Below are positions 1-18,696 of a stretch of 64,000 nucleotides of DNA, piece by piece (position 1 is the stretch's first letter; every line of letters begins with the position of its first letter). Source of the stretch: Hericium rajendrae (taxonomy: Eukaryota; Basidiomycota; Agaricomycetes; Russulales; Hericiaceae); the NCBI GenBank assembly GCA_033439255.1, contig CM065887.1, positions 1,178,001 to 1,242,000 on the forward strand, written 5' to 3'. The position numbers and the translations under genes were made by a program. The notes beneath the pieces were generated by a model. The model made no database searches and was not told where the DNA came from. It saw nothing but the letters and a program-made list of their open reading frames with translations.

Positions 1-3000
1 ATCCAGGACAGCAGTGCGGACCTTCAGATGCTCTGGAAGGAGAGATTGGAACCTCTCGAGCATGTCCTCCTTAGCACCCAGATCTTCCATAGCCTCTCTA
101 CATCTTGAATACACACGTGCCTGGTGTTGAACGGTGCTTTCGATAGAGGTCACACCCTCCCATGCCCGTGTCTTCTTGCGTTGACTATTGGCCTGCCGCA
201 CATCAGTCCTGAAAACATAGGCCTTGTATCCCAAGGCTAGTCGTAAGCTTTGCAATGCATCATTGGCCTGGCCTTCCCGCAATTCCAGTTCAGCTTCCAC
301 CAATGTCTTCATCTGAGGCACACGGAGAACCTCCTTATCAAGACGAGATGGTAGGCTGATAGCCACGCGTTCAATGGGGATGTAACCGCCAGATCTACGG
401 GGTACTGCAGTAGCGTGGGTATCATTGTCCTCGTCTTCTTCTCCAACGTGATCAAACTGATCTCCATCTCCAGCGGAGAGAGGGATGCCGTGATTAGCCG
501 TATCGATGTCGTAGGGTAAAAACTGGCATGCAGCACGCTCAAAGGTCGTCACACGGGATTGCAGACGTCTTCGTTTGTCCTCGAGATCATTCTTTTGTGC
601 CGAGGTAGGGCTCGACCCCACTTTGCGGACAAGCGATACAATAGACAGCCTGCGGTTTGAGATTTAGGTTGAGATCAAATCAAATACGTCAGGTGAAACA
701 ACGAACTGTGTCTCTTGAATCCGGAGGCCCAGTGTTATCCATGCCGCAGCGCCAAGGCCCTGTCCACGGTCCAATTCTAGTTTGTTTAGCCTGACGAGGA
801 TATCGGCTCTTGTCGGCCCTTCCACAACATATAATATATTAGTACTGGCTCCAGGTTATGGACAGGATACCACAGTACCTTTCTTTACCGTAGTGTCATA
901 GATTTTGACCATCACCATGGGATCATCTTCCCGTTTGCTTTGTGCCTCTTCCTCCTCGTTCGCCCAGTCATCCCGTTTATCCCGTGAGACCGTGGAATTG
1001 ATACTCTTGAATGCCGTGATTGCCTTTTCTAATTCTACCTTTCCAGCCCGATACCGCCGCGATAGGTAGTTCACTGTATAGTGGGTCAGCGGCATAAACG
1101 GGATATGGCGATTCAGATCAGTACCCATTCCAATGAGCTTCTTCCAGTTTGAATCATTCATATGGTCGTCTAGAACTTCCCGACGGTGGGATGTCGACAT
1201 GCCACTGGTGCTTCTAGAAATCTCATTCAGTGGAGCCCAGAGCGTCTCGACAACTTCACCATCGAATTGCCGTGCACCAATGATATAATTCGGTGAAAAT
1301 GCTGGGATGCATTCATCCTTGTGCCCATGCACATGAAACAGTCCAATCGCAGCCTTCATCTCGACGATGCTATCAGGAAGAGATAGGAATTCACTGTTAG
1401 CCACGCGTTCTCGGAATTTCTTGCGCCACTGGCATATGATGTCATATATTTTCATGACGATTTCTATACCTTTGCTTCTAAAGTTAATGGCCTGACACGC
1501 GGAGTAGTCCATGTTCATTTGTCTGTTACACTGGTCAGCATGTTCATTCCACATGGCTGAAATCATAGACCAACCGCTCGCCCTTCTGAAAATCAACTGT
1601 AGAGTGCGGGTAGAAGCACCCATGGCAGCAAGCCGTTGCTCCAATTCCGGTATGTTCAACGTGATGGCGATCAGCATTGACACGATTGACCGCCCGGTGC
1701 TCGTTGCAGGTGGATCGCTATATGCCGCGGGATACCTCAACGGTGTTCTGGTGATATGGTCAAATGATGCGCACCTCGCGTTGGTCATTAGCCGCCTTCA
1801 AGTGCTTCTTGTACTCTGCTTGTCCAACCATGAATCCGGCCCCTTCGCTAAGCTGGACGTCGTTGGCCGGTCTGCGCATCTTGCTTCCTGTGGACTCAAA
1901 GTTGCCGTCCATCACAAACGTCCTGAGAAAAATCCAACTACATGCAGGACGGTAAGCCATAGGTCATGCACCATGTGAGGAGCGAGTTACCGTCTGGGGT
2001 CAGCTGTCTTCCAGTCATCTGGTAGATTGAATTCTGGCTGTGCGCAGGTAGGGCAGAACATCGCGCGGCATCCTGGTGTTTCTGAATCCTCTGGGTCGTG
2101 ACCCATACCAAACCACTTCCTGAGTTTCATATCCCGCCATTGCCGCTCAACCCGCAACAACTCCCGGTATCTATCCTGGATTACAGTCAGCATGGTGATG
2201 GCCCACGTCGAGACAGACACATACTGGTACACTGGACGGAAATGCACTATTCGTGAGCCTTCGCAACTTATGATAGAAATGGTAAGCCGTCGTCTTGCAT
2301 TCCAGGTTGTCCAGCCGAAAGTCATCCAGAACGCGGAAGGTAAATGCCGTCTCAGGTGAGTGGAATGTAGATGGGAACATCTGCATACGGAAGAGTTGCA
2401 GGGGGAGGGGATCTGCATTAGGACATTGACACCAGACAACCGGCATGCGGTGCACACCACTCGAGTCCACAATACATAGAATTGGATTCCCGTCGGCATC
2501 ACGGGCCTTCTTCGGCAAGACGTCAGTCTGAAAGGACAGCAGGTCCTCATCATCAGCAGGCCATGGTGCAGTAGGATCCTCATCGTCAATTGGTGGATCC
2601 TCCTCAGCGTCCTCCTCCGGATCCACACTTGATTCAACGTCCTCTCGACTGGCATAAGGGCAAGGATGTCCTGAATGGCCTACATGAATCTTGACACCGG
2701 CGAAGCGAAGCCATGATGGAGAAAAGAATTCGCCAGTCCAGCGTTCGACGCGGTGGAATGGCAAGGCCGTATGACGTTTAGAGAAACAGGGAGTGCATTC
2801 GAACATCTGCCCTAGACAGTCCATACATCGCCAGACACCTTCTTGACTCTTGCAGGTAACGCACTGGGTATCAACTGGCGGGCACTCGGTATCCAACATG
2901 GCATGGATGTAGTCTGAACGTTTGGGTAGCCATTCGCGCAAGTAATCATGCTGTCCCTTGCTCGCGGCATCAGCACCGTGTCCTGCGGCATGCCGAGGTT

Positions 3001-3332
3001 ATCCTACCCACCTTGTGATGTACATCTGCTAATGGGTCACGAATCCCGTCCTCCTCCTCTACAAAGTCGTTGTTCATGACTTCATAGTCGGCAGTACGTG
3101 GCCCTGGGAGAGCATTGAAGACAGCATCCCTGGATGGTCCACTTCCCTCCCTGTCAGGCGTAGGAGTGAGGTTAGAAGGGGTTTCGCTCAGCAGTCTACG
3201 TGATCCAGCCTTTTCAATTCCGACTTGGTTCCACCCGCGGGACGTCTTCTGCACAACCAGGGTGACATGGACATTGCCATGGAGGGGTGCAGTATATCGT
3301 ACTTTATTCCTGCCCGGCTTGGTGCGGGCCAT
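1..3332 (-). CDS. KDZ-family (Kyakuja/Dileera/Zisupton) transposase, C-terminal end outside the window
   Basis: This is the transposase of a plain DNA transposon. Exon 1 (3332-3008) starts at ATG 3332; the GTAGGA donor and GCAG acceptor restore frame into exon 2 (from 2982), which reads QHDYLREWLPKRSDY. A cysteine cluster of the CxC2 type follows (C..C, CMDC, CTPC around 2900-2790), then the RVLDDFRLDNLECKT block. Later exons carry VMDGNF (about 1905), a CCHGCF segment, DFQKGER spliced to QMNMDYS, YDIICQW (about 1440), GLFHVHGHKDE and GEVVETLW (about 1240). By family knowledge the acidic residues in VMDGNF, YDIICQW and VETLW fit an RNase H-like catalytic core. The reading continues to base 1 through LREGQANDALQSLRLALGYK, so the C terminus lies beyond the edge. 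I saw no frame break in the parts I spliced. It should cut and rejoin element DNA in the nucleus. Family assignment is strong; exact exon borders below 2.2 kb are partly inferred. Confidence 0.9.
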
Positions 3333-3514
3333 GCTGGGACTGATGGTGCATGGGCCTTGGTGTTAAGGCGCATATAATAACGCCACAATGTTTGAACGAT
3401 TAGGACCCTCAGTTTTACACTCATTACTAAGGAACAAATGGTGGCAAATGACATGCTTCCGAGAAGCCGTGGTATATTCTAGAGCCGTGGTATATTCTAG
3501 ATGTCCATATGATC

Positions 3515-4978
3515 TCAAGATAACGCCAATCTCCGGAGATCCAGCACCGATTGCTCCAGATCATCTTCGGAATCGCCAACAGCCGCCTCAGCGTGCATGG
3601 TCTCATACCTGCTGACCCGCATCCATCCGGCTGCCTCCTGCCCAATGCGATCATGCACGGCATCTCTCATGAACCATGCGTAACAAATGCGCTCCCCAAC
3701 AAAGTCTGAGACTGAATGTTCCAGGGCTTTGCCAGACACTGCTATGACAGTGCGGGGTTTGTAATTCAGTTCTAGGCCAGTTCCTGGAAGCGCAAACGTT
3801 GCGCTCTGATAGGGACCGATGGTGCAGAGAATGTCATACCATGAGGCACGACTCTGCCCATCGCGATGAGCCGGTGTTTGCCGGTTAGATATGACCGCAA
3901 CTCCGTTGAACACAGATGGCCATTGCTGAAGGGCTGGAGCAAGTCGTTCAATGCCCTGAGCTCCTTCATGACGGATGCCGCGGCATCGTAGAGCTCTGGA
4001 TGAACAACGCTTAGAATAGCGCTGAATAGCGCAGCGGACTCTGCAATGTCAGCCACCCAGTTCGCGCCATCAATGTTGCGTTTTGCCGGGTTTATCAGTG
4101 GCGAAGTAAACAAGTCATCGTTGGGCCCCTATATGAACCAGTGCATGAGCTGGAGACATAGATATGAATTGGGAAATATGATACACACAGTGTGCGCCTG
4201 CTGAAACCATGCAGGAGACACAGACACCGTCCCTGGGGTGAATCGGCTACATGCCTCTGCAGGATGAAAGAGCTGGGGCGATTCCCTCCATGTGCCATCC
4301 TTGGTGCTTCCAGACTTTTTCCGAGATGGATTGGACCTTCGAACATGTGCGTTCAAATGTTCTGTTGCCCTCGCCATCTTGATCTGTGAACGAAATTAGT
4401 GGTTTTGATTGTATGTACCTGCAAAAGACAATACCTCGCGCTCCTTGGATATAAGACCAGGCAAGTACCAGAAGAAAATCCGTCCATGCCGATCAATGCC
4501 TATGCAGGGCTTGGTATACTCGGGATGTCCTGATACCCGCGGATATCGTTGCAGAAATACTGGAGAGTCCTGCTCTCGTTTACGTTCTGCATAGCGCTCC
4601 ATGTCCCAGTTGATCACAACTAATGGGAATTAAGCAATGGGGGAGAATGCCGCATACACATAATTACATACCACGATCCAAAAAGGCGGTGACAAGCATA
4701 TCCGCGGCGAAGTCGAGCTCAGATAAAACAGTAATCGGTATTGTCATAGCAGGACGGTCAATATCACCAGGCACAGCCCGGTTCAATGCCGCGCATTGAC
4801 ATTGTCTGAGCACATTGCGAAATCGGTGGGAGAGATACTCTGCCATGGCTGAGGCATAAGGACAAGCAGATGAAGATGCCGCACGGGATGTAGGTGCGGA
4901 AGACATGATGACTCTGTGGTATAGTTGTCTCTGGAATACCGCAGACTGAAATACTTGCAGGGACAATGAGGCAGCCAT
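3515..4978 (-). CDS. TET/JBP-type 2-oxoglutarate/Fe(II) DNA dioxygenase, one apparent frame break
   Basis: Four exons fit: 4978-4672, 4619-4435, 4383-4189 and 4128-3515, with GTATGT, GTATTG and GTGTGT donors. Exon 2 has the fungal TET/JBP signature PEYTKPCIGIDRHGRIFFWY. The last exon holds the double-stranded beta-helix core: SNRQTPAHRDGQS (iron ligands H and D), SGKALEHSVSD (second iron His) and ERICYAWFMRD (Arg for 2-oxoglutarate). Enzymes of this family oxidise 5-methylcytosine or thymine methyl groups in DNA. The exon sum is 1301 nt and the frame changes near 3960-3970, between HPELYDAAAS and the WPSVFNG block, which suggests a one-base indel; a sequencing error is possible. It sits 183 bp upstream of the KDZ transposase on the same strand, a pairing known from mushroom genomes. 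The chosen start is the first in-frame ATG. It is recently decayed, or intact and misread. Confidence 0.85.
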
Positions 4979-4992
4979 GATCGTACTCGAGC

Positions 4993-5101
4993 TTCCATTG
5001 TCCACATATTACATTGTTCTATTGTCCCATCAATTTGGAATTGCCAATGTCATTCTATTGTCCTATGAAGCTACCGCTGTTTTTGTACCTTTCTATTGTC
5101 C
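4993..5101. promoter_or_regulatory. Four direct TTC(C/T)ATTGTCC elements upstream of the TET/JBP gene
   Basis: Copies lie at 4993-5003, 5017-5027, 5053-5063 and 5091-5101, all in the same orientation and directly upstream of the dioxygenase start at 4978. ATTGT is the core bound by HMG-box proteins in general, so a DNA-binding site is plausible. No protein can be named from sequence alone. Confidence 0.45.
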
Positions 5102-5761
5102 AGCGGTTGACTCAATCAGCATGAATCTATGTTTCGGGAATTGTACACTATAGACTTCACAATAACCCAACATTCTCCACAGTCTTTGATACTACACAAT
5201 TGTGTATATGGCTCATTAATGCTTTCTCGCATCACGATTGTGGACTTCGGACCGGACTTGATAGCTGTATTATGTATTATGACGAGTAACCGATTGATTG
5301 TGGATAGATTATCCGGTGGGGGCCGTGCCCAGATGTTTGGCGCGCCGGACTTCTTATTTGCGTCTATCGATCCACAGACACATTCAAAGATCCTACTGAC
5401 TTCTCTTCCCAGAAATACATGATATACGCATGGAATATGTGTATCAAGCTAGCATTATGCTCAATCTCAGTACTAGTTGGCAAATGAAGCGATGGGCATG
5501 TGATTGTTGTAGCGAGTGACAACGGGAAACCTGTCTTCTTTCGAATGGAGCAACATGCCCGTTGCTCTCCATTCGGCAAGGATTATTTCGGCTGGCCCTG
5601 TTGGTTGCCTTACCGGTATTTCGATACCTGCCATGGCGTGATCGGATGGGTTCCCAATTCGATCCTGGCCGGTGCGTGATGGAAGACGGACGAATTATAT
5701 TGCAAAAATTTGTTCAAGGTCGCATGTCCTTTCTGGCCATCCCCTACATTTCCCCTTCCTA
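5102..5761. other. Divergent intergenic region between the TET/JBP gene and the 5762 gene
   Basis: No ORF with coding character is visible. It is flanked by divergent starts at 4978 (minus) and 5762 (plus), so it probably contains both promoters. I found no clear TATA box. Confidence 0.5.
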
Positions 5762-8700
5762 ATGGCTAGGGCGAAAAAGATAACCAAAGCCAACAAGCGC
5801 ACGTCCAAAGCCGCGGATGAGGCAACCACAAGCACCTCAGCAGCATTGGAAGTCCAGCTCACCCTCCAGCCCCGCCACGTTGCATATCTCTTCACACGAG
5901 TGGCCGAGTATCGTTTGGCAGACTCTGCCCGAAAGACGGCCATTGCAAACGAATGTGTGGACCACCTGGAGGTCAAATTTGCCCGCGAGTTTGCTCCCTG
6001 GAAGAAGTGGAGGCGTCGGGTCAAGGAGGTCCGTATCTGTTTTACTTGAAATCTCCCTTTCTGACTTTCAGCACAGCGCGTCGTGATCTGGTTCCGAAAT
6101 AATGGCCGTAAGACCGCAAGTACCCAGGTCAAGAAGTACGTGAAGAAGGCAGACTGGAGGAACGTGGCCGCACATGAGCAGAAGGATTCGTTCCATGCAT
6201 ACTTCGAGCGGGTGAACGGGGTCAAAGTCGGGTCCCCGAAGTGGGTTGGATTGCGACAGAACACCCTAACGGCGTGGTGTGCGAAGTTCAGTGACGCGGA
6301 TAAGGCGAAGTATGAGGAGATGGCGAATGAGTGGAATCAGATGGGCCCCCCGCCTGATGTGCAACGCAAGTACGTGTCAAACCTCTCTTCTAACAACCGC
6401 GGGGGCTAATCCTGAATAGAAATGCATCCAAATATGCAGTCGCCCACATGCGCGGCTTTGCCAAAGAAATGTATCAGCAGTGCGGCATGCAAATGATCAT
6501 TTTCACATCTTTTAAATGCCCTGATGGCCATCTGGCCCATGCCATGTAAGTCATTTGCTGCTTTAACATTTGACTTGAGTTAACCCCGAGTAGGCAAGAC
6601 TATACAGAAGACCTGTCTGGGACAAAGGGGTTCAGCGAGGCAAATCCGAACTGGGCAGACACCGGCATATTTACACAATGGACGGAGTGGTCAACAAAGG
6701 CATCAGGTGAGTACTTCAATATATCTGGCTGGCAAGCGCTGATGCCATGCTTCAGATCCCCTGCTTTGCGAAGCTCCAGATGCTCCAAGCGAAAGCCTAG
6801 ACCTCCCGGAACTGGATTATGACGATGAAGGCTGGCCGATCTTGCCATCGCTAGAGGTATTCGATAAGCTGGAGAGGCAAGAGCGGAAGGCCTTGATCAC
6901 TCAGTGGATGACTGCACACTTCCATAAGCCAGAGTATCATCTCATGGAGCAGAAGCTGACATGTAGATCAGATATTGCAATAGGTGAAGTAAAGGGCGCG
7001 GTGCCATGGGGATTGGTTTTTACCGAGGACAGCGACTACTTCTCCCTGGATTGCTTCCCGCCAGGATACCAATTCTGGATTCACCCGTCAAAGTGGAACC
7101 AATATTGCATTGAAGATGTATACAGGCACTGGCACGACCGCATAGACGAAGGCTTGATTCCCTTCAAGTGGGATTATTTTCCGGAGGTCGACGGTGATGA
7201 CACTGTTCAATGCTTTGCCAAAGCTCCTACTCCAATGCAGGGACCTCCTGCTAAAGGCAGGAAAGCCGCGTTGAAGGCCCGCCATGCCATGTCCCCCTCC
7301 ACAGGGTCCGGGAATGCCGCGGAGCTCTCCAATACCTCCGCGCAAAGCCGTACACCTACGGCGACCTTGGGAAAAGGCAAGGAACGGGCGCACGTTGATT
7401 ACGACAGCCAGGATGACCAGACCCCATCGTCACCAGATGTACAAGACACCCCGCCACCTGTAATCAGGTGGAAAGGCAAGGACAGGCCCCCAACAGCGTC
7501 CCGGAATGCCGCTGGGTTCTCCAATACCTCCGCGCAAAGCCGTACACCGACGGCGACCTTGGGAAAAGGCAAGGAACGGGCGCACGTTGATTACGACAGC
7601 CAGGATGACCAGACCCCATCGTCACCAGATGTACAAGACACCCCGCCACCTGCAATCAGGCGGAAAGGCAAGGACAGGCCCCCAAGGGATTACGACACCG
7701 ATGAGGACCTTACCTCGTCGTCACTAGGTGGTGAAGACATCGTCCACCTTTCGGACACTGATGCGTCCAAGGCAGGGGATGTTCTATCTGATGCGGACTA
7801 CAGCGGCATTACTGCGGCAGCAGAGGAGGACTCCGAAGCAGAAGTAGAGGAGGCAAACCCGTCTGATATAGACTTGGAGAGTGACGCACAGCATCCAAAG
7901 GCGGCAACGCAGACCCTGGCCAAACAGCATGAGGCGCAGGTGGCTCAGGAGAATGCCACGCAGGCAAAAGCGAAAACCACTAAGGCGGCCAAGGCAATGG
8001 AGGCCAAGGCAATTGCAGCCAAGGCGAACGCCATGAAGGCCAAAGCCGCGGCGGCAAAGACCATCCAGGAGAAGGCTCAGGCGAAGGCTCAGGCGAAGGC
8101 CGCGGCGAAGGTGGAGGCTCAGGCGGAGGCTCAGGCGAAGGAGGCGAGGGAGGCGAGGGAGGCGAAGGCGAGGGAGGCGAAGGCGAGGGAGGCGAAGGCG
8201 AGGGAGGCGAAGGCGAGGGAGGCGGAGGTGAGGGAGGCGGAGGCAAGGGAGGCAAAGGCGAGGGAGGCAAAGGCGAGGGAGGCAAAGGCGAGGGAGGCAA
8301 AGACGAAAGCGAAGGAGGTGAAGAATAAAGCCTATCAGGAACGACTGACCATAACGAAGGCTAATCTGGTGAAGCTTGGGAAGGGGAAGAAGGCAAAGGA
8401 AACCAAAGGACAGCAGAAGGAGTCTGGAATTCCATCGACTGATGAGGAGGATGAGGTGTTGATCATGGTGGACGAAGTGGCAGACCAGAGCCTACAGGAG
8501 CTGGAGAGACCTCCTGGGTGGACTGGGAGCTCAGGCGGCCCTGCCGGAGGGTCTCTCGCTGCTGCAGGTGGTGCTCCGCAACGCCGCGGTAATCGTCCAG
8601 CCACTTTGGAATGCCCTGCAGACACACGACGCCACACCCGACTCCGCATGCAATACCTGGCCTCGTTATCCAATGAAAAGGAGTATTGCAAGCTTCTGGA

Positions 8701-9619
8701 GCTGATTGCGCAGATGCAAGGAGTGAGTGATGCTATTATGACATCTCAAAGTTTCAAACACTAACTGGACTTAGGGAATGGGTGCTGCGCCACTAATTCC
8801 ACTTCCAGCAAGCTGGAGAACGCACTGGAAAGACTGGGAGAGCCAGGAAATGTGGCTTCCTGCTGAAGTTCATAGGCAGGAGGGGCTAGAGGACCTCACC
8901 ACATGGATTGGTACGAAGCCCTGGCTTTCTGCACCAACGCAGAACGGGTCGAGGAGTGTCCGATCTAGGACAAGCATGGAAACCTTTGCTTTGGCCATGG
9001 GTAGTGCTATACATGATATGCATGAAGGCCAATTCGCAGAGGACGTGGACGAGGAGAGCTCAGGACCTGGCTATTTGAACGGATCACCTCTTGCTTTCGC
9101 TTACATTGCGAGTCTGATAATCCCTGCAATTACGAAAGCCTGCAAGGCGTTAGATGATCCGGAAGGCACTACCGAAACTGTAGGCAACATTAATTATCTC
9201 TTTATTTATGCGGCAATGATGCTAAACTATCCGGGCAGCAGGCTCCATCCTCTGGACAGAACGCCAATGTCCCGAGGGCCAGCAATGCCGCCAATGATCG
9301 TGGAGGCCCCCATCTGCTAGGGAAACGTCTTCGATCTCCTGATAGTCCCCCAAAGGCTGGGCCGAGCTCGATGCATCCCCCAATCAAGCCGCCTGCAAGG
9401 CGGCAAAGAAAGCCTGAAGTGCAGGATGAGAACATTGTTGAAGGGTCTAGGAGAAAGCGGCCGACGGCTAAGGCCCTTGAGTAAGTTATGCTGCTGTCAG
9501 CACCCAGGCGTCTTGCTGATTCACAATGTAGACAACCCCCACGTTCTGGCCGCAATCCGAAGCTGACAGTGGAGGTTGCGATCCCTGCAGCACGTCCATC
9601 CGGTGGCAGGAAAGCTTGA
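5762..9619 (+). CDS. Large repeat-rich protein of unknown function beside the KDZ/TET genes (1165 aa)
   Basis: I do not recognise this protein. Eight exons close perfectly: 5762-6028, 6077-6369, 6420-6545, 6594-6706, 6756-8722, 8775-9179, 9242-9480 and 9532-9619 (3498 nt). The N-terminal 190 residues are basic and contain [11 protein letters not shown], which only loosely resembles a homeodomain third helix; I would not call it one. Residues about 190-470 look globular, with many aromatics ([16 protein letters not shown]). Then come two 64-residue direct repeats, an acidic stretch, a long Ala/Lys/Glu coiled-coil-like region built on KAREA units, and a Ser/Pro/Arg-rich tail with KRLRSP and SRRKRP that could be nuclear localisation signals. 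A nuclear or DNA-associated role is inference. It is divergent from the dioxygenase gene, which suggests they may be expressed together. An LTR fossil begins right after the stop codon. Confidence 0.75.
7311..7685 (+). repeat. Two 192-bp in-frame direct repeats inside the 5762 gene
   Basis: Copy 1 is 7311-7502 and copy 2 is 7503-7685. They are nearly identical over about 183 bp and encode 64-residue units containing [19 protein letters not shown] and [17 protein letters not shown]. The period of 192 keeps the frame. The near-identity implies a recent duplication or gene conversion. Confidence 0.95.
8131..8305 (+). repeat. 15-bp coding minisatellite (KAREA repeat)
   Basis: Units close to GAGGCGAAGGCGAGG repeat in frame about a dozen times and encode alternating KAREA blocks. 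It is predicted to form a charged helix. On the opposite strand it makes a spurious Pro-rich ORF. Confidence 0.95.
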
Positions 9620-9642
9620 GAGAGCCCATTGGACTCTCGCCG

Positions 9643-10348
9643 GTGATGTGTGGACCCTGGGAATGGAGGCGGCAGCCAAAACCAAAACCAACAGAGTACC
9701 AGGGGGTGCGAGGGGACCAAGTATCTCAAGTGAGGAGTGAGGTGAGGGCAGCTGAGGGTCACTGCAGCAGGAACAATGGAGCGACTGGTTCGCTAAGGGC
9801 GAGTCTGAGGTGATCTGGTGATAAGCGGCTGGGAAGGATGAGGAACGGCTGTAGAATGACAAGGAGAACGACGAGACACACGGGTCTCCGATACGACGGA
9901 CTAATCCTAGAGAAAAGGACTGAAAAGCGGCTGATATGACTGAATCTGACGAACGACGCTGCGGGCGGACTGGCCTAAAGAGGGCGGACTTGTCTAAAGT
10001 CCGGAGAACGATGAGAACAACAGTGAGAGAGACTTCTGAGGTCTGAGCTCTGAGGGGGAAAGGTGCACTGGGGGGGTTCTATTCGAAGCTCAGACTCTGT
10101 CTACCATACAAGTAAGAAACTCGCCCTTGGCGGTCTCGGGCGTTCTCGGACTCGGCTGCTCTATGGTACATCTATGGTCCGAAACCATCAAAAGGCGGCA
10201 TCCAGGCATCCTGTACAACACAGACCCGGTACCATAATGCCAGCAACCTGATTGGCTCACCAAAACTGCTGAGGACGACCTGGAGCGAACTTGAGGAAAC
10301 CTTGATGAGGCCTGCAGTAGCTGACAACTCCTGAGATGAGGGACATCA
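9643..10348 (-). mobile_element. Ty3/gypsy-type LTR fossil, related to the LTR at 26.6-27.6 kb
   Basis: Read on the minus strand, the 3' end (9643-9735) matches the end of the 26600-27619 LTR almost base for base, including TACTCTGTTGGTTTTGGTTT and CCAGGGTCCACACATCA. A second shared block, CCCCTCAGAGCTCAGA, lies near 10045. The outer boundary is uncertain: a TGATG start near 10348 would give about 0.7 kb. No internal coding region is attached, so it looks like a solo LTR. Divergence from its relative outside the conserved blocks suggests it is not recent. Confidence 0.6.
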
Positions 10349-11041
10349 CCGCTCTGAGCGGGGTTGGTGGGTGAGGAGCTGGAAGCTGGATGGGAGTGAA
10401 GGGGAACTGCATGGAAGATGGTGAGATGAGGTCTGACATTGCTGAACACAGCTTGAGGCGTATCACCGGCATGCGGCATCCTTCAACAGATATGCCGCGG
10501 CATTGTATACCGAACGCTAGGGGCTTCAACATGCCTCACGCGGCTGTGGGCCGACGCGAACAACATTTACAGTGGGCTGTAGGATATAGAGAGGAGGGTG
10601 ATGGCTCTGGAAGTCCCGAAGCGGGGTGCAGGAGCATAGGCTACGTCAATAGATATGCCGCGGCATGATAAATCAGTGGTGTGCTGTCGGGCGATGTCCT
10701 TAGGTTGTCAGTAGCATGCCGCGGAGATTCAAAGCAGTGTGTGGAACATGGAGAAAGGCGGGGTCAATACTCCATTTGATGTAGACTCTGGTGCATCATA
10801 TCATAGATACTCATATCTGGTCGCAGTTCAGGATGTTGTATACACAGATATTGCCATGCGAGACTTGAAACGGGTTATATAACTGTCTTAAGCCCAAGAA
10901 TCATTCATCTCAGGTCACACATTTTATCTTAGATAGGAGAGATTGATCATTCATTATCTATTTAAGTACAAGGGCGAAGAGCATGCAGGACTCATGAAAT
11001 AATAGTGAAAATGCCGCCGGATGCCGCGGGCATGGATATAC
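10349..11041. other. Gene-free stretch with ATGCCGCGGCAT palindromes
   Basis: No supported gene. Exact palindromes ATGCCGCGGCAT occur at 10492-10503 and 10655-10666, with a near copy at about 10715. The rest is unremarkable. Confidence 0.6.
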
Positions 11042-13514
11042 CTACTCGGCAGGTTTTGAACCTGTGCTAGGCTGGCTGGATGAGGCCCCAGCATTGCCGC
11101 GGTCTGCATCAGTAGCTCCACCCCACTGAACCGCCGCAGCCGTGCTAAACCGCCCACCAAATAGTCCCGTGGGAACCGGAACTTGTTGCGGGGCCACGTT
11201 GACCATGCCACGCAGCTCTTCGAACCGGGAGGCCATCCTGGAGGACATGTCGGAGATGTCGGTGTGCAGGTTGCTGGATAGTGTGGTGAGGCCCCTATCA
11301 ATGTTTTGAAGACGGTCCTCATGCTCCTTGAGTCGCTGTTCCACTGACTCCTGATGGTGGCCTTGTGTGGTGTCAATGCTGGACACTCGCTCGGAGAGGC
11401 GTTGCACGTCCGCGGAGAGATGGGCCATGCCTTGAATGACACCTTCGTGCGTGCCCAATTGCAGGCGGATACGCTTGATATCCGCGGCAAGATCCTCGAC
11501 CAGCTGTTGGGAGTGTGGGTTGTATTCCCGCCAGTCTTGCGGCATTGGATCGTCAATGCAAGCAATAGGGGGATGGGGAGACAGATTCGGTCGGTGAGGA
11601 GGGGTGACATCCAGGGGAATTTCAGACTGGTGATCTGGATCAGCGTGTGCAGGACCGTCGAAGTGTTGGTCCTGGGCGCGCACTGGAGCCTTGCCCTTGT
11701 CCTTACGCCGAGATGGTCCAGGAGCACGGTCATCCAAGTTGACCTGCATTGGCGGCGTTGGCATACGCGGCTCATCCTCCATGTCGACGTCAAAGTCAGC
11801 GGGTGCCTGAGTAACTGCGGCCTGCTGTGCTTCCGCCTTCGAAGCCGAGGCTGCCTGAGCTGCGGCAGCTGTCGCCGAGGCTGCGTCAGACCAGTAGCCC
11901 CATGATGAGACATTACCCTGCACCTCAGGTTCCCAGTCGACAGAGCGGTCCAGGGGCCATTTGGGCATCGGCCCAGCTGCATGCCGCCAGAGCACATCAT
12001 AGTAGTCCTCTGGGTCCCAGTTACGCCTATTCCCGCTGCCCGCGCCTTGGGCCCGGTGGGAGCATTTGTGCTTGAGGCCCTTGCAGGCGAGGCAGGCGTT
12101 GCATGGGCCCCTGGGGAAGCAAGGCTTCTGGTCCGTTACGCAGCGCTCGCAGGAATCCAGCTAAGATATTTGAAACCTTCATCAGTATTGCTTATGATAA
12201 AGTAACAATGAAATTTGCAAGCGTACCGCTACCAGTTTGGCCTGCTTGATGTATCGAAGCTCGTCAGCTGTGAATACCCGCTGGAGCAAAGGTATATGTG
12301 AGCATTGGAAGAATATGGTAACAAATTACAGACTTACCTGTGGAGGAAGCTGGTCCTCATTTTGCTGCTGCTCACTCTCCACACCCTGATCTCCCTGCTG
12401 GTTCTCCTCCTGCTCTCTGGCGTCCTCAATGGCCTGCGACTGCTGGACTTCTTGGCTAGTCGCCGCATTCTTGCGGCCACGTCCGCCCTTTTGGGGCTTC
12501 GCAGCGGTCTTGCCTGCTGCTGGCTTCTTCGAGGCGGAAGTGGTCTTGCTGGCCCCAGCCTTCGTTGGTGCAGCCTTCTTGGATGCGGGCGCGTTCTTCG
12601 TCTTCTGCGCCTTTGTCTTTGGTTGGGCGGCATCGGGTAAGGCATTGTCATCAGAGGCCATGGCTTCCGCACGGCGCTTGCTTCGGCGGGGCTCTGGTGG
12701 GGTCGGCGCGGCAGGGACATGCTCTGCAGGCCTTGAGGGCGTCTTAGAAGCCTCTACCCGCGCGCGGTTGCGATCAATTTGCTCTTGGACCTCGGCGGCA
12801 TCATCTGCAGGGATTTGGATGCGAACGCCATTCTTCGTGGGCTGGAGCACAACCTTAGGCCGAGGTCGTGGGGGTTGGCGACGTTCAGGATCAGGCTGGG
12901 GAGGTTTCGCAGTAGGTACGGCGGCGGGGCGGGTGGTCTGAGTGGAGGAACGACCAGCAGGATGGTCGGATGACGATGCAATGGAAACTGGGGATTCATT
13001 ACGATCTAACAATACATCAATGGATTGAATATGATGCAGGACCGAATACCGACGCACCTAGCTCTAACCACCACCCACCTTCGAGCACACTGCCGCCCTG
13101 GGAATCGTCGAGATCATGGTAGTTTGTTGGCCACAACTCAGAGTGGTAGTGCCCCATCATTTCCTCCTTGAGACGGGAATCCGCAGAGGAGATGGAAGCG
13201 AAGTCCACTGGCCGGGACATGCGGCGGGCATCTACCATCTCAAGCATCCAGCTGATGACGAGCGGCGGGATTATCTTGCGTTCGCCGGCTTGTTGCACGG
13301 CCAGAAATGCCTGTGCTAGAGATTTCTGCAGAGACGTAACGTGGTCAGCAGCATATGAAGTTAAGAACTGAAAACGTACTTGTTCCGCAGTGAAACGTCG
13401 CTCCCACTCATCCCTGCTGATAATGTCCCGGTGCTTTAGAGAACCAAGGGCAAGGAGGACACGAAGAGCACAGCGCATGACATCCTTTTCAAGTGGGGTG
13501 TAGGGGGATGACAT
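11042..13514 (-). CDS. Unknown nuclear-type protein with a cysteine cluster (740 aa)
   Basis: I do not recognise a named family. Five exons close in frame: 13514-13380, 13325-13079, 13005-12338, 12280-12227 and 12160-11042 (2223 nt). The N-terminal 127 residues look helical and globular. Next comes a low-complexity basic region of Lys/Ala/Pro runs (SKRRAEAM, KPQKGGRGRKN) resembling a disordered DNA-binding tail. Exons 4 and 5 then give RVFTADELRYIKQAKL followed by a metal-binding-type cluster, CERCVTDQKPC, CNACLACKGLKHKC, near 12150-12060. A helical region around residues 530-650 has heptad-like spacing (RLSERVSSID, RLKEHEDRLQNID). The C terminus is Ser/Gly-rich. Its start lies 143 bp from the divergent gene at 13658. 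A similar cysteine-cluster layout is seen in the 23.8 kb gene. A chromatin or DNA-binding role is inference. Confidence 0.75.
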
Positions 13515-13657
13515 GGTGGTGAGTGCAAAGTGAGAGTGGGACAGGATGTCGACTTAGCCGCGTCCGCGGGGAAGTGAGAGCCAGATCACGTGACTGTCGC
13601 GCCGCGCGGTGAACTCGCGTAGATTGGCGCTGGTGTCACTGTTGACTCTCTACTACA
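13515..13657. promoter_or_regulatory. Short bidirectional promoter region
   Basis: Only 143 bp separate the divergent ATG codons at 13514 (minus) and 13658 (plus). It contains GC-rich segments such as GCCGCGTCCGCGGGG near 13558 and CGCGCCGCGCGG near 13598. No TATA box is obvious. The spacing implies a shared control region. Confidence 0.6.
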
Positions 13658-14804
13658 ATGAACGCTGACGACCTGGATTCGTTCATGGTAGGACTCGCTG
13701 AGGAGTCTGAACATGATGCGGATATGTATTCTGACAACCCGCAGAACCATATGCCCGCAGGCCAGGCAGCACGCGGGGACCAGGTGAGTGCTTTTGTTAG
13801 AGCATTGGATTTCAACGCTTATAGCGGGCAGGGAGATCCTGATGACATTCAGGCGATGGAGGACATGTTCTGCGGTGTCCTTGATCCGCCGACTATGAAT
13901 GTGGCTCACGAGCGCACAGGGTCCGATGTCCAGGAAGTTGAAAAGGTGAGTAGGGTGCGAGCCCTGGGAAATTGGTTGCTGATATTTCTCAGGGAGCAAT
14001 GGACGAGCTATGGGAGATGGAGGGCATGTTTATGGACATATGCGGTAGTCCTACTCTGGGTGAGGAGGTATGTTGTCAACCCATTCTACCTGAATTTAAA
14101 CTGATTTACCGAAGTCTGCATCTGCGGATGGGGTGGGATATGCCTCGCGAGGTCCAGGGGACATATCGGCTGCGGTTGCACTTACCAAAACGACGATCAG
14201 CGGTGTCATTCGTGATGATGGCATAAGCCCGGATGTGCAGTGCGAGGCGGGTCGTAATGCCATCGCGACACCTGCGAAGGCTGGAGTAGGCGGTCCCGCG
14301 GGATCGGTATGTACTATGGCTATGACCGCGGCCAACATACTAAGTCCTAAATTAATCCAGGTATCCGGTAAGGGAAAGGGAAAGGAGAGAATGGTGGAGG
14401 GAGGTGATGGACCGGTAATCATGGCTACTGAACAGGCTGAGGTGCGGACATTTTGTGCTGATGTGTGATGAGATGTTAATGATGCCTCTCTTCTGGCCAA
14501 CAGGATAGTAGCAGTCCGCCACCATTGGTCGAGGTGCGTTTTAACTTGAGATGAGTGACTGTCCCTATAGCTGATGGTCAAAATATCACAGGACTTCCCG
14601 TTTCACCGATATCTCAGCACGTCCCGTCGCCTCCATCCGGGATCTGTCGGTATGATGGTATCTCAGCAGGTCATGGCAGCGGAAGCAGCGCGGTTCGAGA
14701 CGGAATTAAACCTCTTCCGAACGTTAGCGAAAGGCCATGAGAGAATGAAGAGTTACCTAGAGGATGCACGGGATAGCTACCGAATGGCAGTTGAAAAGTA
14801 CTAG
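13658..14804 (+). CDS. Unknown acidic protein, divergent partner of the 11.0-13.5 kb gene (317 aa)
   Basis: I do not recognise this protein. Five exons close in frame: 13658-13945, 13993-14067, 14115-14441, 14504-14533 (only 30 nt) and 14571-14804 (954 nt). The N-terminal half is acidic and Met-rich (MNADDLDSFMVGLAEESEHD, DELWEMEGMFMDICG). The middle is Gly/Ala/Ser-rich. The C-terminal 70 residues look helical and possibly coiled (FETELNLFRTLAKGHERMKS). Head-to-head placement with the cysteine-cluster gene suggests co-expression, perhaps as partners in one system; that is inference. No signal peptide or membrane segment is visible. Confidence 0.65.
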
Positions 14805-15345
14805 GTGGCTATCCGTATCTTAGTATTCTTGTAGGGTAGATATACTTTATATCAGAGATTGAGGTTCATATACCAGCAAAATGCCGCGTGAATGATAACA
14901 ACATTGGCGGCATTCTATAATGATTGTACGACATGGGGATGGATACGCTATACAGAAGTCTCCGCGGCATAGACGGAAACTGTATTCTTTCAATTAGTAC
15001 ATGGACAGCCTCCTACAATGTGTTCCAAATTACATGCAAGCCAGACAGAGACCGTACGAATGCTGCGGCAGCTGAGGCGGCATCTGTGGGGATTGTCGAA
15101 ACATATTATGGGCACTTCAAGTCGTTGAGAGCATAGAATCAAGACAGATCAGACGATATTGAAAGTGCAAGGACGCTGCAATTTCTGAAATCGAAAACAA
15201 ATGCAACACATATATCAAAAGGTAGTAAATGAGGCCGGGCTCCTGAATGTTCGTCAAACTCCGAACTGCCACTCATTGCATCTGTATGAGATTGGTCCAC
15301 ATTATGCCGCGGCATATATTAGCCATGCAGTACATCCGTACGCAC
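14805..15345. other. Gene-free stretch with ATGCCGCGGCAT sites
   Basis: No supported gene. It contains an exact palindrome at 15304-15315 and partial copies near 14881 and 14965. Another exact copy lies just downstream at 15515-15526. Confidence 0.6.
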
Positions 15346-15705
15346 ACACGTGGTCTGCGATACAAGTCCATAGACGACCAGAGATACGCAGAGAATCATG
15401 GGACATGGCTGCTTGGGGATGTTACAGGCATGGGGTACGGTCTTCTGGATAAGGTTGTAGCATCGCTCGTATTCCTGTACATTCCAGAGATCAACCGCGG
15501 CATACACTGTGAGTATGCCGCGGCATACCTGGGAAGCATAGTACATTAGCACGCATGCACTCGGTCTGCGATACAAGTCCATATGAGCATACAATGGAAC
15601 GAATGACGACCAGAGGTACGCAGAGAATCACGGGACGTGGCTGCTTGGGGATGTTACGGGCATGGGGTACGGTCTTCTGGATAAGGTTGTAGCATCGCTC
15701 GTATT
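15346..15705 (+). repeat. Direct duplication of about 130-145 bp
   Basis: The segment 15348-15475 recurs at about 15562-15704. Shared blocks include TCTGCGATACAAGTCCATA, ACGCAGAGAATCA and GGCATGGGGTACGGTCTTCT. The second copy has a short insertion. No coding role is apparent. Confidence 0.85.
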
Positions 15706-15892
15706 GCGGTACAACACGAGGAGCCGGTCACCACCAGCATCACCTCCCTGTTGATGTAGAGCATCCATACAAGCAGTGGTGAGTTCATGGCTGACCAACC
15801 AATGTAGGTATGGCAGTGTGGCGTGAAATAGCGGTAAATAGACATTGTATGTAGTATGCTAAGAAATGAGCATGTGCAATCTATAATGTGTG

Positions 15893-17380
15893 TTGGCCAA
15901 CCATACCAGCATAGTACGGTATACTATTTCAGATGTTGGCCAACCATAGGGGCATGCCGCGGTAACGTGAGTCAGACATTGGCCAACCATGCTGGCATGG
16001 TACAGGAGAACGAACATGTGGGTTGGCCAACCAATGTCGCACGGTATAGTACGGTCCGTCAGATGTTGGCCAACCATAGGGGCATGCCGCGGTAACGTGA
16101 GTCAGACATTGGCCAACCATGCGGCCACGGTACAGGAGAACGAACATGTGGGTTGGCCAACCAATGTCGCACGGTATAGTACGGTCCGTCAGATGTTGGC
16201 CAACCATAGGGGCATGCCGCGGTAAAGTGAGTCAGACATTGGCCAACCATGCGGCCACGGTACAGGAGAACGAACATGTGGGTTGGCCAACCAATGTCGC
16301 ACGGTATAGCACGGTCCGTCAGATGTTGGCCAACCATAGGGGCATGCCGCGGTAAAGTGAGTCAGACATTGGCCAACCATGCGGCCACGGTACAGAAGAG
16401 ATAATACGTGCGTTGGCCAACCAATGTCACACGGTATAATAGTATCTTCGGCTGTTGGCCAACCATGCGGGCATGGTCCTGAAGAGAGAATATGCGAGTT
16501 GGCCAACCATAGCAGCATGACAACACAGACAGGATGTCCGCGTTGGCCAACCATACCAGCATGGTACGGTACACTATTTCATATGTTGGCCAACCGTAGG
16601 GGCATGGTGCGGTAAACCATGTCTGACATTGGCCAATCATGCGGGCATGACACAGAAGAACCAATATTTGTGTTGGCCAACCAACGTCACATGGTATGGT
16701 ATAGTACTTCGGATGTTGGCCAACCATAGCGGGATGATGATGCAGGCAGGATGTACGTGTTTGGCCAACCATGGCGGCATGCCGCGGTAAAATACGTCGG
16801 AGGCTGGCCAACCAAGGCACAATGGTGGGGTATATAATATCAGACGCTGGCCAGCCAAGCCAGAATGGTTGAGTCAAATACAGTAGGACATTGGCCAACC
16901 ATGGCGGCATGGTTGAGTTATTTCAGCGCGACGTTGGCCAACCAAGCCGGAATGCCACCGTATGAATATACGGGACGTTGGCCAACCGCAGAGGCATGCC
17001 GCAGTTAAAGATATGTGAGGTTGGCCAATCAAGCCAGAATGGTAGCGTATAATTATATGGGATGTTGGTCAACCATAGCGGCATGTTGGTGCAGAAAGGA
17101 TATGCACATTGGCCAATCATAAGGTCATGCAGCCTTGCAGCATATTGGATATTGGCCAAGCATACTGATATGCCGCAATATGCCGCGGTAGGCTGAGGCA
17201 TATTTTGTGCTTGGCCAGGCATATTCGATTGCAGAAATGGTATACTTGGCCAGACAATACTGCATGGTAACTAACTGTCAGGTATAGGGGCATAAGCGAA
17301 CATTCCCGGGCAATGCGGTATGATAATCAAGATTGTCATTCTGGCCATACTACTATGACTACACCAGGACGTTGGCCAAC
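15893..17380. repeat. Phased TTGGCCAA array, 30 sites at 43.4 bp plus a degenerate tail
   Basis: TTGGCCAA or a close variant starts at 15893, 15936, 15979, 16023, 16066, 16109, 16153 and so on to 17152. That is 30 sites in 29 intervals; 28 are 43 or 44 bp apart within one base (range 42-45), mean 43.4. Most continue as TTGGCCAACCA followed by a GGCATG motif. Units form a 130-bp higher-order repeat of three (43+43+44), nearly identical from 15936 to 16412. Several units contain GCATGCCGCGGTAA, linking the array to the ATGCCGCGGCAT sites around it. Sites degrade after 17152 (17211, 17246, 17372). Long overlapping ORFs across it arise from the repeat period and are not credible genes. Confidence 0.95.
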
Positions 17381-17460
17381 GTGAGCTCACCAATCTAGAA
17401 TGCGACGGTGTCAGTTTGGCTCAACATGGTCTTACGGAAAATCAGTACTGAATCATGTGA

Positions 17461-18696
17461 TTCATTAAGAAGGTCTCCCAGTATTTTGTAAAAGCGGGAA
17501 TTCTTTTCAAGCGCAATGGAAGCCGACCTCCACTCAAGGTTATCCTCAAGACAGCACAGCGACTTTCAATCATGACAGAAGCACATGAAGGATTAGGACA
17601 TAGAGGAGAGGTTGCAGTATTTGAAACTATTAGGGTTAGATTCTACTGGCCTTATATGCGAGCTGACGTTAAACATCACGTTGCATCCTGTCATCAATGT
17701 CAAGTGCGCAGTACAAAGAAAGTTCGTATGCCAATAATCGTATCAACTCCTTCAACGATATGGACACGAGTCTATATTGACGTAATGTACATGCCAAAAG
17801 CAGGAGACTTTGAATATATAGTTGCAGCAAGAGATGACTTATCAAGAGCCTCAGAAGGACGTGCGATCAGAAAAGCAAATTCTAGGACTCTTGCCAATTT
17901 CTTCTGGGAAGAAATATTTTGCAGATATGGAGCAGTAGGGCAAGTTACAACGGACAATGGCCCAGAAGTAAGAGCAGCATTTGCAGATCTTATGGACAGA
18001 ATGAATATTCCACACATTCCAATATCACCGTACAATTCGAGAGCCAATGGAGTCGTTGAACGTGGACACTTTATCATTCGTGAATCTATTGTTAAGGCTT
18101 GTGAACACAAAATGAATCAATGGCCTTCAAAAGTGCCGGCAGCCTTTTTCGCTGATAAAGTTACCACCAGTCAAGTCACAGGATATTCACCATATTATCT
18201 ACTGCATGGTGTAGAACCCGTCTTACCCTTCGATCTCACAGAAGCAACATTTATGGTAGAAGGATTTATGTCGGGAATGAGTCCAGAAGATTTACTGTCA
18301 TTACGTCTTCGTCAATTGGAGAAAAGAGAGGAAGATCAGGAGCATGCTGCATTTAGACTCAGCCAATATCGCATGAAGTCCAAGGAAGACTTCGAAGAAA
18401 AGTTCAAGGCAAGACTGATGAAGGAAGAATTTGAACCAGGAGATTTAGTATTACTCCGAAACTCCGGAATTGAGACGCAGCATGACAGAAAACCATTGCC
18501 AAGATATCTCGGACCTTATGAAGTTGATAGACGCACACCAGGTGGATCTTATGTAATTAAGGAACTCACCGGCACTTTTAAACGAGATGCAGTTGCCGCA
18601 TTTAGACTTATTCCGTATATCGCTCGCAATAAGAAGCTACTAAAGAAGCTTACCAAGGGCTCTCATGTGGAGTTATCTGATGAAGAAGAAGATTAA
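17461..18696 (+). mobile_element. Ty3/gypsy retroelement fossil, integrase part
   Basis: The translation shows a zinc-binding H-C type N terminus (AHEGLGHRGE, CHQCQVR), an rve-type integrase core (YIDVMYMPK, TTDNGPEVRAAF, NSRANGVVERGH) and a C-terminal domain (EFEPGDLVLLR, LPRYLGPYEV). This order is that of Ty3/gypsy pol. It is a broken element: only the integrase part is recognisable here. The piece itself reads as one long open frame, which suggests a fairly young fossil. It lies immediately beside the degenerate end of the TTGGCCAA array. Confidence 0.9.

Follow-up and report, generated by a model that had tools for sequence, protein, structure and literature searches.

TET-carrying Kyakuja DNA transposons of Agaricomycetes combine a KDZ transposase with a TET/JBP dioxygenase of the AG type, to which CcTET is closely related, and are flanked by target-site duplications (TSDs) of 7 bp, while those of Zisupton and Dileera are 8 bp long; two such families from L. 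bicolor have 5'-CA..TG-3' termini and no terminal inverted repeats (TIRs), according to the excerpts of the source used here (Kojima 2025, PMC12730594). In Cryptococcus neoformans, the elements KDZ1-3, whose mobility has been shown, measure 9.2-11 kb and have TIRs of 139-241 bp, TSDs of 4-8 bp and CxC1, again following excerpts of the report (PMC12810828). A third system is provided by the Arabidopsis VANDAL elements, which are of MuDR type (PMC12730594); the passages available to us describe a protein, VANC, that binds a short motif, often arranged as tandem repeats in noncoding element DNA, with loss of methylation as the outcome, the bound motif varying between related VANDAL families (PMC5735166). 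Here we describe a TET-carrying transposon of the KDZ kind in the basidiomycete Hericium rajendrae, enclosed by two inverted arms filled with phased short sites, which we identified in a stretch of 64,000 bp (the window, C10:1178001-1242000, contig CM065887.1) and compared with the whole 46.77-Mb assembly of 19 contigs, written C1, C2 and so on.

The complete transposon measures 22,478 bp, from -5019 to 17459 (C10:1172981 to C10:1195459; negative coordinates count base pairs to the left of the window start), as established from the terminal tips, the TSDs and a comparison of the window copy plus 20 kb on its left with the 50-kb surroundings of the copies C9a, C9b and C11. The window copy is flanked by a 7-bp TSD, and 826 bp of its length belong to a later solo long terminal repeat (LTR); C9a and C11 measure 21,887 bp and 21,530 bp, respectively. 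Searching the genome with window positions 1-3000 revealed seven near-identical KDZ-bearing loci, referred to as family 1, on C1, C4 (where the match is split into two pieces about 3 kb apart), C9 (two loci), C10, C11 and C18, and four of these copies differ by only 0.21-0.41% over about 16.9 kb. The target repeat of the C11 insertion exists elsewhere as two uninterrupted paralogous copies, each with AGCTAAC once, and these represent empty sites; no such empty copy was found among the loci compared when the left and right flanks of the window copy or of C9a were joined. The element was thus mobile in the past, and we consider it practically certain that it is a DNA transposon with these ends and genes. 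The initial annotation, made from the window sequence alone, had proposed a single KDZ element comprising several genes of unknown function and an array within positions 1-17390, and copies, TSDs and empty sites bear this out for a larger element: the proposed block lies mostly inside it, with a right end drawn 69 bp short and a left end actually located 5,019 bp outside the window. Recurrence in the same genome, inverted repeats with a TSD and an unoccupied locus, to which that annotation had looked as signs of such a unit, are all seen here, the recurrence comprising the seven KDZ-bearing family 1 copies, a family 2 copy and, for part of the gene set, nine family 3 loci described below. Features beyond that annotation are a second, mirror-image arm, two additional genes on the left and the solo LTR. 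From left to right, the gene order is F1 (+), F2 (+), KDZ (-), TET (-), C (+), D (-) and E (+), the models of E, F1 and F2 having been spliced by hand, and the features are as follows:

-5019 to -2741 (approximate), outside the window: A tip and left inverted arm (copy comparison)
-2302 to -1696, + strand, outside the window: small gene F1 (exon model)
-1450 to -544, + strand, outside the window: small gene F2 (exon model)
1 to 17459: part of the transposon inside the window (copy comparison, tips, TSDs)
1 to 3332, - strand: KDZ transposase, 1105 aa in nine exons, the last ending outside the window at -441 (gene model and Pfam)
3515 to 4906, - strand: TET/JBP dioxygenase, 409 aa in the C11 copy (C11 model, Pfam, CcTet alignment)
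3975 to 3986: CpG palindrome ATGCCGCGGCAT (motif scan)
5762 to 9484, + strand: gene C, large protein, about 1140 aa, containing a low-complexity repeat of KAREA type (gene model)
9641 to 10466: solo LTR, a later insertion and not part of the element (absent from three other copies compared)
10492 to 10503: CpG palindrome ATGCCGCGGCAT (motif scan)
10655 to 10666: CpG palindrome ATGCCGCGGCAT (motif scan)
11042 to 13514, - strand: gene D, 765-766 aa, seven-cysteine cluster, candidate DNA-binding protein (gene model)
13658 to 14804, + strand: gene E, 292 aa in six exons, divergent from D (gene model)
15303 to 17459: right arm, inverted counterpart of the left (arm alignment)
15304 to 15315: CpG palindrome ATGCCGCGGCAT (motif scan)
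15515 to 15526: CpG palindrome ATGCCGCGGCAT (motif scan)
15893 to 17379: phased array of 28 exact TTGGCCAA units (32 with one mismatch), about 43.3 bp apart (unit counts)
17444 to 17459, - strand: B tip, CACATGATTCAGTACT reading inward (tip scan, end pairs)
17460 to 17466: right copy of the 7-bp TSD, ATTCATT (flank comparison)

Pfam and the gene models place the KDZ transposase, the TET/JBP enzyme, the large repeat protein and the divergent gene pair where the initial annotation had put them, except that the repeat protein is 1138-1143 aa long in our models instead of 1165 aa. The KDZ protein matches Pfam KDZ (PF18758, 9.6e-46) and CxC2 (PF18803, 3.3e-25), with CxC1 below the cut-off, and a single scan of viral contigs with its first 727 aa found nothing. 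The TET protein of the C11 copy matches Tet_JBP (1.4e-20) and CcTet (7vpn, 2.4e-26), CcTet-type chains being its only matches in the PDB, and we assign it to the AG type on the basis of these PDB and Pfam matches rather than of a tree. Its alignment with CcTet retains the HRD motif, the later His and an Asp at CcTet Asp337, with Ser at the Gly331 position, and the excerpts of PMC12730594 give the same Asp and Ser for AG-type Kyakuja TETs. Across the seven products, with C scanned in parts, Pfam families were limited to KDZ/CxC2 and Tet_JBP. The element thus has a KDZ domain with a CxC cluster within a discrete mobile unit bounded by a TSD, as in the KDZ superfamily, and its 7-bp TSD favours Kyakuja over Zisupton and Dileera; we call it Kyakuja-like and TET-carrying, its branch being suggested by TSD length. 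Like TET-carrying Kyakuja elements, it brings KDZ and an AG-type TET/JBP together, has a 7-bp TSD and begins with CA at one end; unlike the two L. bicolor families as described in those excerpts, it has inverted arms of about 2.2 kb with arrays and five further genes, and its other end reads ...GGGCTC-3' instead of TG. With KDZ1-3 it shares a KDZ transposase, inverted repeats and short TSDs, but the portions of PMC12810828 used here mention no TET, arrays or accessory genes. Starship elements are defined by a captain gene for a tyrosine recombinase (DUF3435). No such domain was detected by Pfam in the seven products, C again being scanned in parts.

The ends carry two short tip types, A (GAGCCCATTCAGTACT) and B (CACATGATTCAGTACT), of which B begins with CA and A gives ...GGGCTC-3'. 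A genome scan for both returned 28 sites without a mismatch and 33 with a single one, against 26 in all for a reversed control, and from it 13 facing tip pairs were chosen (26 tips, three with one mismatch). Every one of the 13 pairs consists of one A tip and one B tip, and the TSD is a perfect 7 bp in ten pairs and matches at 6/7 positions in another. Alignment of 14 arm ends (eight long, six partial) showed that tip type is tracked by only the outer 40 bp or so, inner markers being consistent with neither tip nor side. The A tip lies on the KDZ side in the C1, C10 and C11 copies and in both family 2 copies, and the B tip lies there in C9a, C4 and C18; of these three, C4 and C18 are rearranged and lack a TSD, which leaves C9a as the clean case of a flip. 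The most economical reading is that recombination between the arms inverts the interior, although an assembly error may lie behind it; the tips stay paired as A with B in spite of the exchange between the arms behind them. Separately, a B tip at C18:64668 and an A tip at C18:307799, 243 kb apart and both on the + strand, share TSD halves (GCCTTCC and its complement), which is the footprint expected of inversion by recombination between two inverted insertions.

Behind the tips lie two arms of about 2.2 kb each, inverted with respect to one another; in the window copy, their identity over the outer 1.44 kb is 97.6%. The palindromic-site array noted on the right side by the initial annotation proved to be one of two: the right arm has 28 exact TTGGCCAA units against 0.04 expected and the left arm 25 against 0.02 (50 dinucleotide shuffles), and the units alternate with GCATG boxes and, in part, also with CCGCGG. 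Among the 32 right-arm units found with one mismatch allowed, 27 of 31 steps measure 42-45 bp, and a higher-order periodicity of 130 bp is present in the family 1 array. In four family 1 copies, each of the eight arms contains 25-37 exact units (29-41 with one mismatch), the share of steps at 42-45 bp ranging from 24/28 to 36/40. In the family 2 copy C2:164455-185113, the left arm has 41 units (27 exact) with 34/40 steps at 42-45 bp, the right array is shorter, with 15 exact units, and the two arms align over only about 233 bp. Samples of 600 bp from two short relatives of the element gave 11 units (eight exact) spaced exactly 43 bp apart at C2:781 kb and 14 exact units spaced exactly 44 bp apart at C3:3427 kb. 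Most TTGGCCAA units of four element groups thus lie 43-44 bp apart, the arms of these groups being otherwise alignable at about 61-75%. Three successive units at array spacing match 467 times per strand genome-wide against none for the reversed control, and the approximately 100 places listed are element arms throughout.

The CpG palindrome ATGCCGCGGCAT was described from the window as rare, with five exact copies, and five were indeed found; the genome holds 69 sites against 0 for the reversed control. Among the 50 sites listed, 47 fall in family 1 or 2 elements and none at family 3 loci. Of 38 copies of the related box ATGCCGCGG in the element, 20 lie in the arms, five in genes and 13 in the rest of the element, compared with three copies in the 59.9 kb of surrounding DNA, and within the right arm the box marks every third array unit over four repeats; its recurrence inside array units makes the CpG palindrome part of the array system. 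In its possible way of working, the element resembles VANDAL in combining a short, near-private motif in arrays with candidate proteins; the differences are that VANDAL is a plant element for which binding has been shown and for which the excerpts of PMC5735166 mention no array-filled inverted arms, the present comparison being drawn from sequence. Two other element types have parts of this architecture. In CACTA/En-Spm elements, TnpA binds to subterminal repeats, and the long inverted repeats of foldback (FB) elements are themselves sub-repeated, the transposases and motifs of both being unrelated to those found here and the TSD lengths different; motif arrays beside the ends, as in CACTA/En-Spm, and long repetitive inverted arms, as in FB, occur together in the present element.

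More distant relatives carry the same genes. Family 2 comprises two loci on C2, about 73% identical, and the copy read (C2:164455) contains all seven genes in family 1 order and orientation, with the N-terminal part of C missing. Family 3 comprises nine loci on eight contigs, 66% identical, and the same search also returned shorter fragments; all nine loci have KDZ and TET, with F2, KDZ and TET in order, F2 being recognised through weak matches (E 0.003-0.07, 27-28% identity) whose side and strand relative to the adjacent KDZ are as expected at 9/9 loci. Four additional weak F2 matches were found, of which C1:1693192 and C12:2151157 have another TET or D locus nearby and C8:2049808 and C3:3277591 do not. 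Gene C is present at 8/9 family 3 loci, lying 16-18 kb from the main TET match at C1, C17 and C18. Counted by eye from match listings with a linkage limit of 30 kb, gene C (first 657 aa) has 16 loci, all within the limit of a TET match, and gene D has 16, of which 15 are (two D pieces on C4, at 370 and 405 kb, being taken as one locus and the nearer piece counted). The lone D exception, C3:487465, is a match to the cysteine cluster (34%, E 1.3e-9) with no TET match within 30 kb. Gene E was found by genome search in families 1 and 2 only, and its C-terminus, which looks coiled-coil-like by eye, is 55-57% identical in family 2. Genes C (first 657 aa and last 217 aa), D, E, F1 and F2 gave nothing significant in Pfam, nor did parts of C and D in NCBIfam.

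Gene D encodes the cluster C-x2-C-x6-C-x5-C-x2-C-x2-C-x6-C, all seven cysteines of which are kept in family 2, followed by a basic linker and a C-terminal part judged by eye to be coiled-coil-like. The Zn2Cys6 cluster has the pattern CX2CX6CX8CX2CX6C, which the spacing in D also fits, and CGG repeats such as CCGCGG are often bound by Zn2Cys6 proteins. A Zn2Cys6-like D protein reading CCGCGG may be taken as a lead, Pfam detecting no Zn2Cys6 domain in D. A relationship to the transcription factor Pho7 was discarded, the PDB match (E 1.7) being at chance level. Between families 1 and 2, dN/dS stays below 1 for every gene, at 0.13 for KDZ, 0.15 for TET, 0.27 for C, 0.28 for E, 0.30 for D, 0.31 for F1 and 0.43 for F2, rough values since dS of 1.2-2.2 approaches saturation and the calculation was confined to aligned codons (212 for C, 151 for F2 and 199 for E).

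Five short relatives of 5.2-6.3 kb have A/B tips and perfect 7-bp TSDs:

C2:780783-786939
C14:446611-452892
C3:3426616-3432138
C5:17961-23195
C17:257492-263405

None of the five contains a match to KDZ, TET, C, D, E or F2 in the genome searches, and both that were sampled (C2 and C3) carry arrays. They are probably non-autonomous families mobilised by the same machinery, and the retention of arrays in relatives without gene matches is as expected for ends acting in cis. On C17, decayed fragments of the left half (inner arm, F1/F2 and the end of KDZ) at 387288-417287, 80-85% identical, and an arm with an A tip at 347610-348906, 83% identical, are likely older relicts. A further 19 or so TET-like loci (32-39% identity; for example C8:692153 and C10:1569847) lie outside the family 1-3 loci.

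Stretch 9641-10466 had been considered as part of the element and was rejected as a solo LTR absent from the three other copies. For its family, 40 genome matches were scored of 182 candidates, at 96-100% identity, and several occur as same-strand pairs about 4.39 kb apart, which indicates a family of LTR retrotransposons about 5.2 kb long. Immediately right of the insertion site, a translated open reading frame at 17572-18696 resembles a retrotransposon integrase, from which the element seems to have landed inside a retroelement.

Our preferred explanation, to which we give a probability of about 0.82 overall, is a large KDZ-type transposon that carries TET and a gene set of its own. The KDZ transposase would pair one A tip with one B tip and insert the element by cut and paste; both arms of about 2.2 kb, with roughly 25-40 TTGGCCAA/GCATG(CCGCGG) units each in family 1, would be binding-site arrays for an element-encoded protein; the binder, for which the cysteine-cluster protein D is the best candidate, would mark the element and help to assemble the transposase complex; and TET would oxidise host-placed 5-methylcytosine on element CpGs, easing silencing. 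Within this scheme, binding of the arrays by some element protein, KDZ included, is probable. An additional role of the arrays in directing TET or anti-silencing is doubtful, and the assignment of D as the binder is equally tentative and our least certain inference. The fullest version, in which the element would be a self-addressed epigenetic eraser, its cysteine-cluster protein reading near-private arm sites and intergenic CpG boxes and bringing TET and transposase, with transposition under a strict A/B tip rule akin to the RAG 12/23 rule, recombining arms and a flipping interior, is unlikely.

The strongest competing explanation, a genuine contender at somewhat under even odds, is that the arms bind the KDZ transposase only, as ordinary subterminal repeats, with the accessory genes otherwise employed and no targeted anti-silencing. 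The cysteine cluster CxC2 of the KDZ protein itself fits it, as do the short relatives, which keep the tips and, in the two sampled, the arrays without any gene matches, so that the arrays may serve mobility in cis; in our judgement, however, 25-37 exact units per arm together with the 13 of 38 ATGCCGCGG boxes outside genes and arms exceed what end recognition needs. It is improbable that the arrays are functionless, selfish, satellite-like tandem repeats grown by unequal exchange: although the 130-bp periodicity and the variation from 25 to 37 units between arms of near-identical copies reveal growth by duplication, and the arms recombine, a drifting satellite should lose both the unit core and the 43-44-bp spacing that four element groups have in common. 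Segmental duplication of a host gene cluster including a KDZ gene, suggested by the several genes of unknown function in the copies, has a negligible chance of being correct, ruled out as it is by exact ends, 7-bp TSDs and empty sites, and by the position of C (16/16 loci) and D (15/16) near a TET match.

Several observations weigh against the proposed scheme. Regarding the ends, two of the 13 pairs lack a TSD, namely C4 366-427 kb (2/7) and C18 308-334 kb (4/7), and five exact tips remain unpaired: C9:1763745 (of C9b, in which the B end alone is intact), C17:348891, C18:64668, C18:338506 and C19:113009. In the window copy, a single-base indel breaks the TET reading frame, and a TET exon of one of the three copies compared with it also contains a 1-bp indel; open TET frames are present in other copies. 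Gene D is found at only 4/9 family 3 loci, with 27-30% identity and, at C3 and C18, at a distance of 21-23 kb from TET. For its cluster, neither Pfam nor the PDB gave a significant match, and an AlphaFold prediction of the cluster from two sequences yielded no usable fold (pLDDT 42). Strong selection on the accessory genes within the family, which we had considered, was not seen: synonymous to nonsynonymous changes are 10:25 for C, 3:11 for D, 2:6 for E and 2:7 for F2, with no sign of purifying selection, and KDZ (7:1) is the sole gene with clear selection (F1 has a single change, and TET was excluded).

The methylation footprint bears on the same question. Changes from C to T at CpG make up 54 of 97 single-copy substitutions among four copies, with CpG accounting for 22% of C-starting dinucleotides, and the observed/expected ratio of CpG, 1.10 at 24-53 kb and 1.04 at 54-64 kb of the window, falls to 0.79 in the element; together, the excess and the lowered ratio constitute a methylation footprint on the element, in line with the host methylation assumed in the proposed scheme. 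A like bias occurs in the solo LTR family, which has no TET (12 of 28 changes in three copies), suggesting that repeats in general are methylated here. As read from these substitutions, the TET gene has not spared the element methylation at its CpGs, and the idea of TET as an effective shield is weakened by this mutation load and by the LTR bias, the latter resting on three copies and 28 changes.

TET-carrying Kyakuja elements with 7-bp TSDs are already known; what appears to be new, relative to the excerpts consulted, are the array-filled arms, the unlike tips and the conserved accessory genes. In the literature searched, array-filled arms, unlike paired tips, interior flipping and accessory genes are undescribed for KDZ elements, a search that lay outside the supplement of PMC12730594 and the 2014 founding KDZ/TET paper, where parts may be known. 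Transposon-borne TETs are numerous in mushrooms, and the question addressed here is how a TET could favour its own element. Arrays of near-private sites and conserved non-enzymatic genes beside TET provide concrete candidates for a possible addressing part, and the combination of unlike tips with freely exchanging arms offers a natural test of end-pairing rules in the KDZ superfamily.

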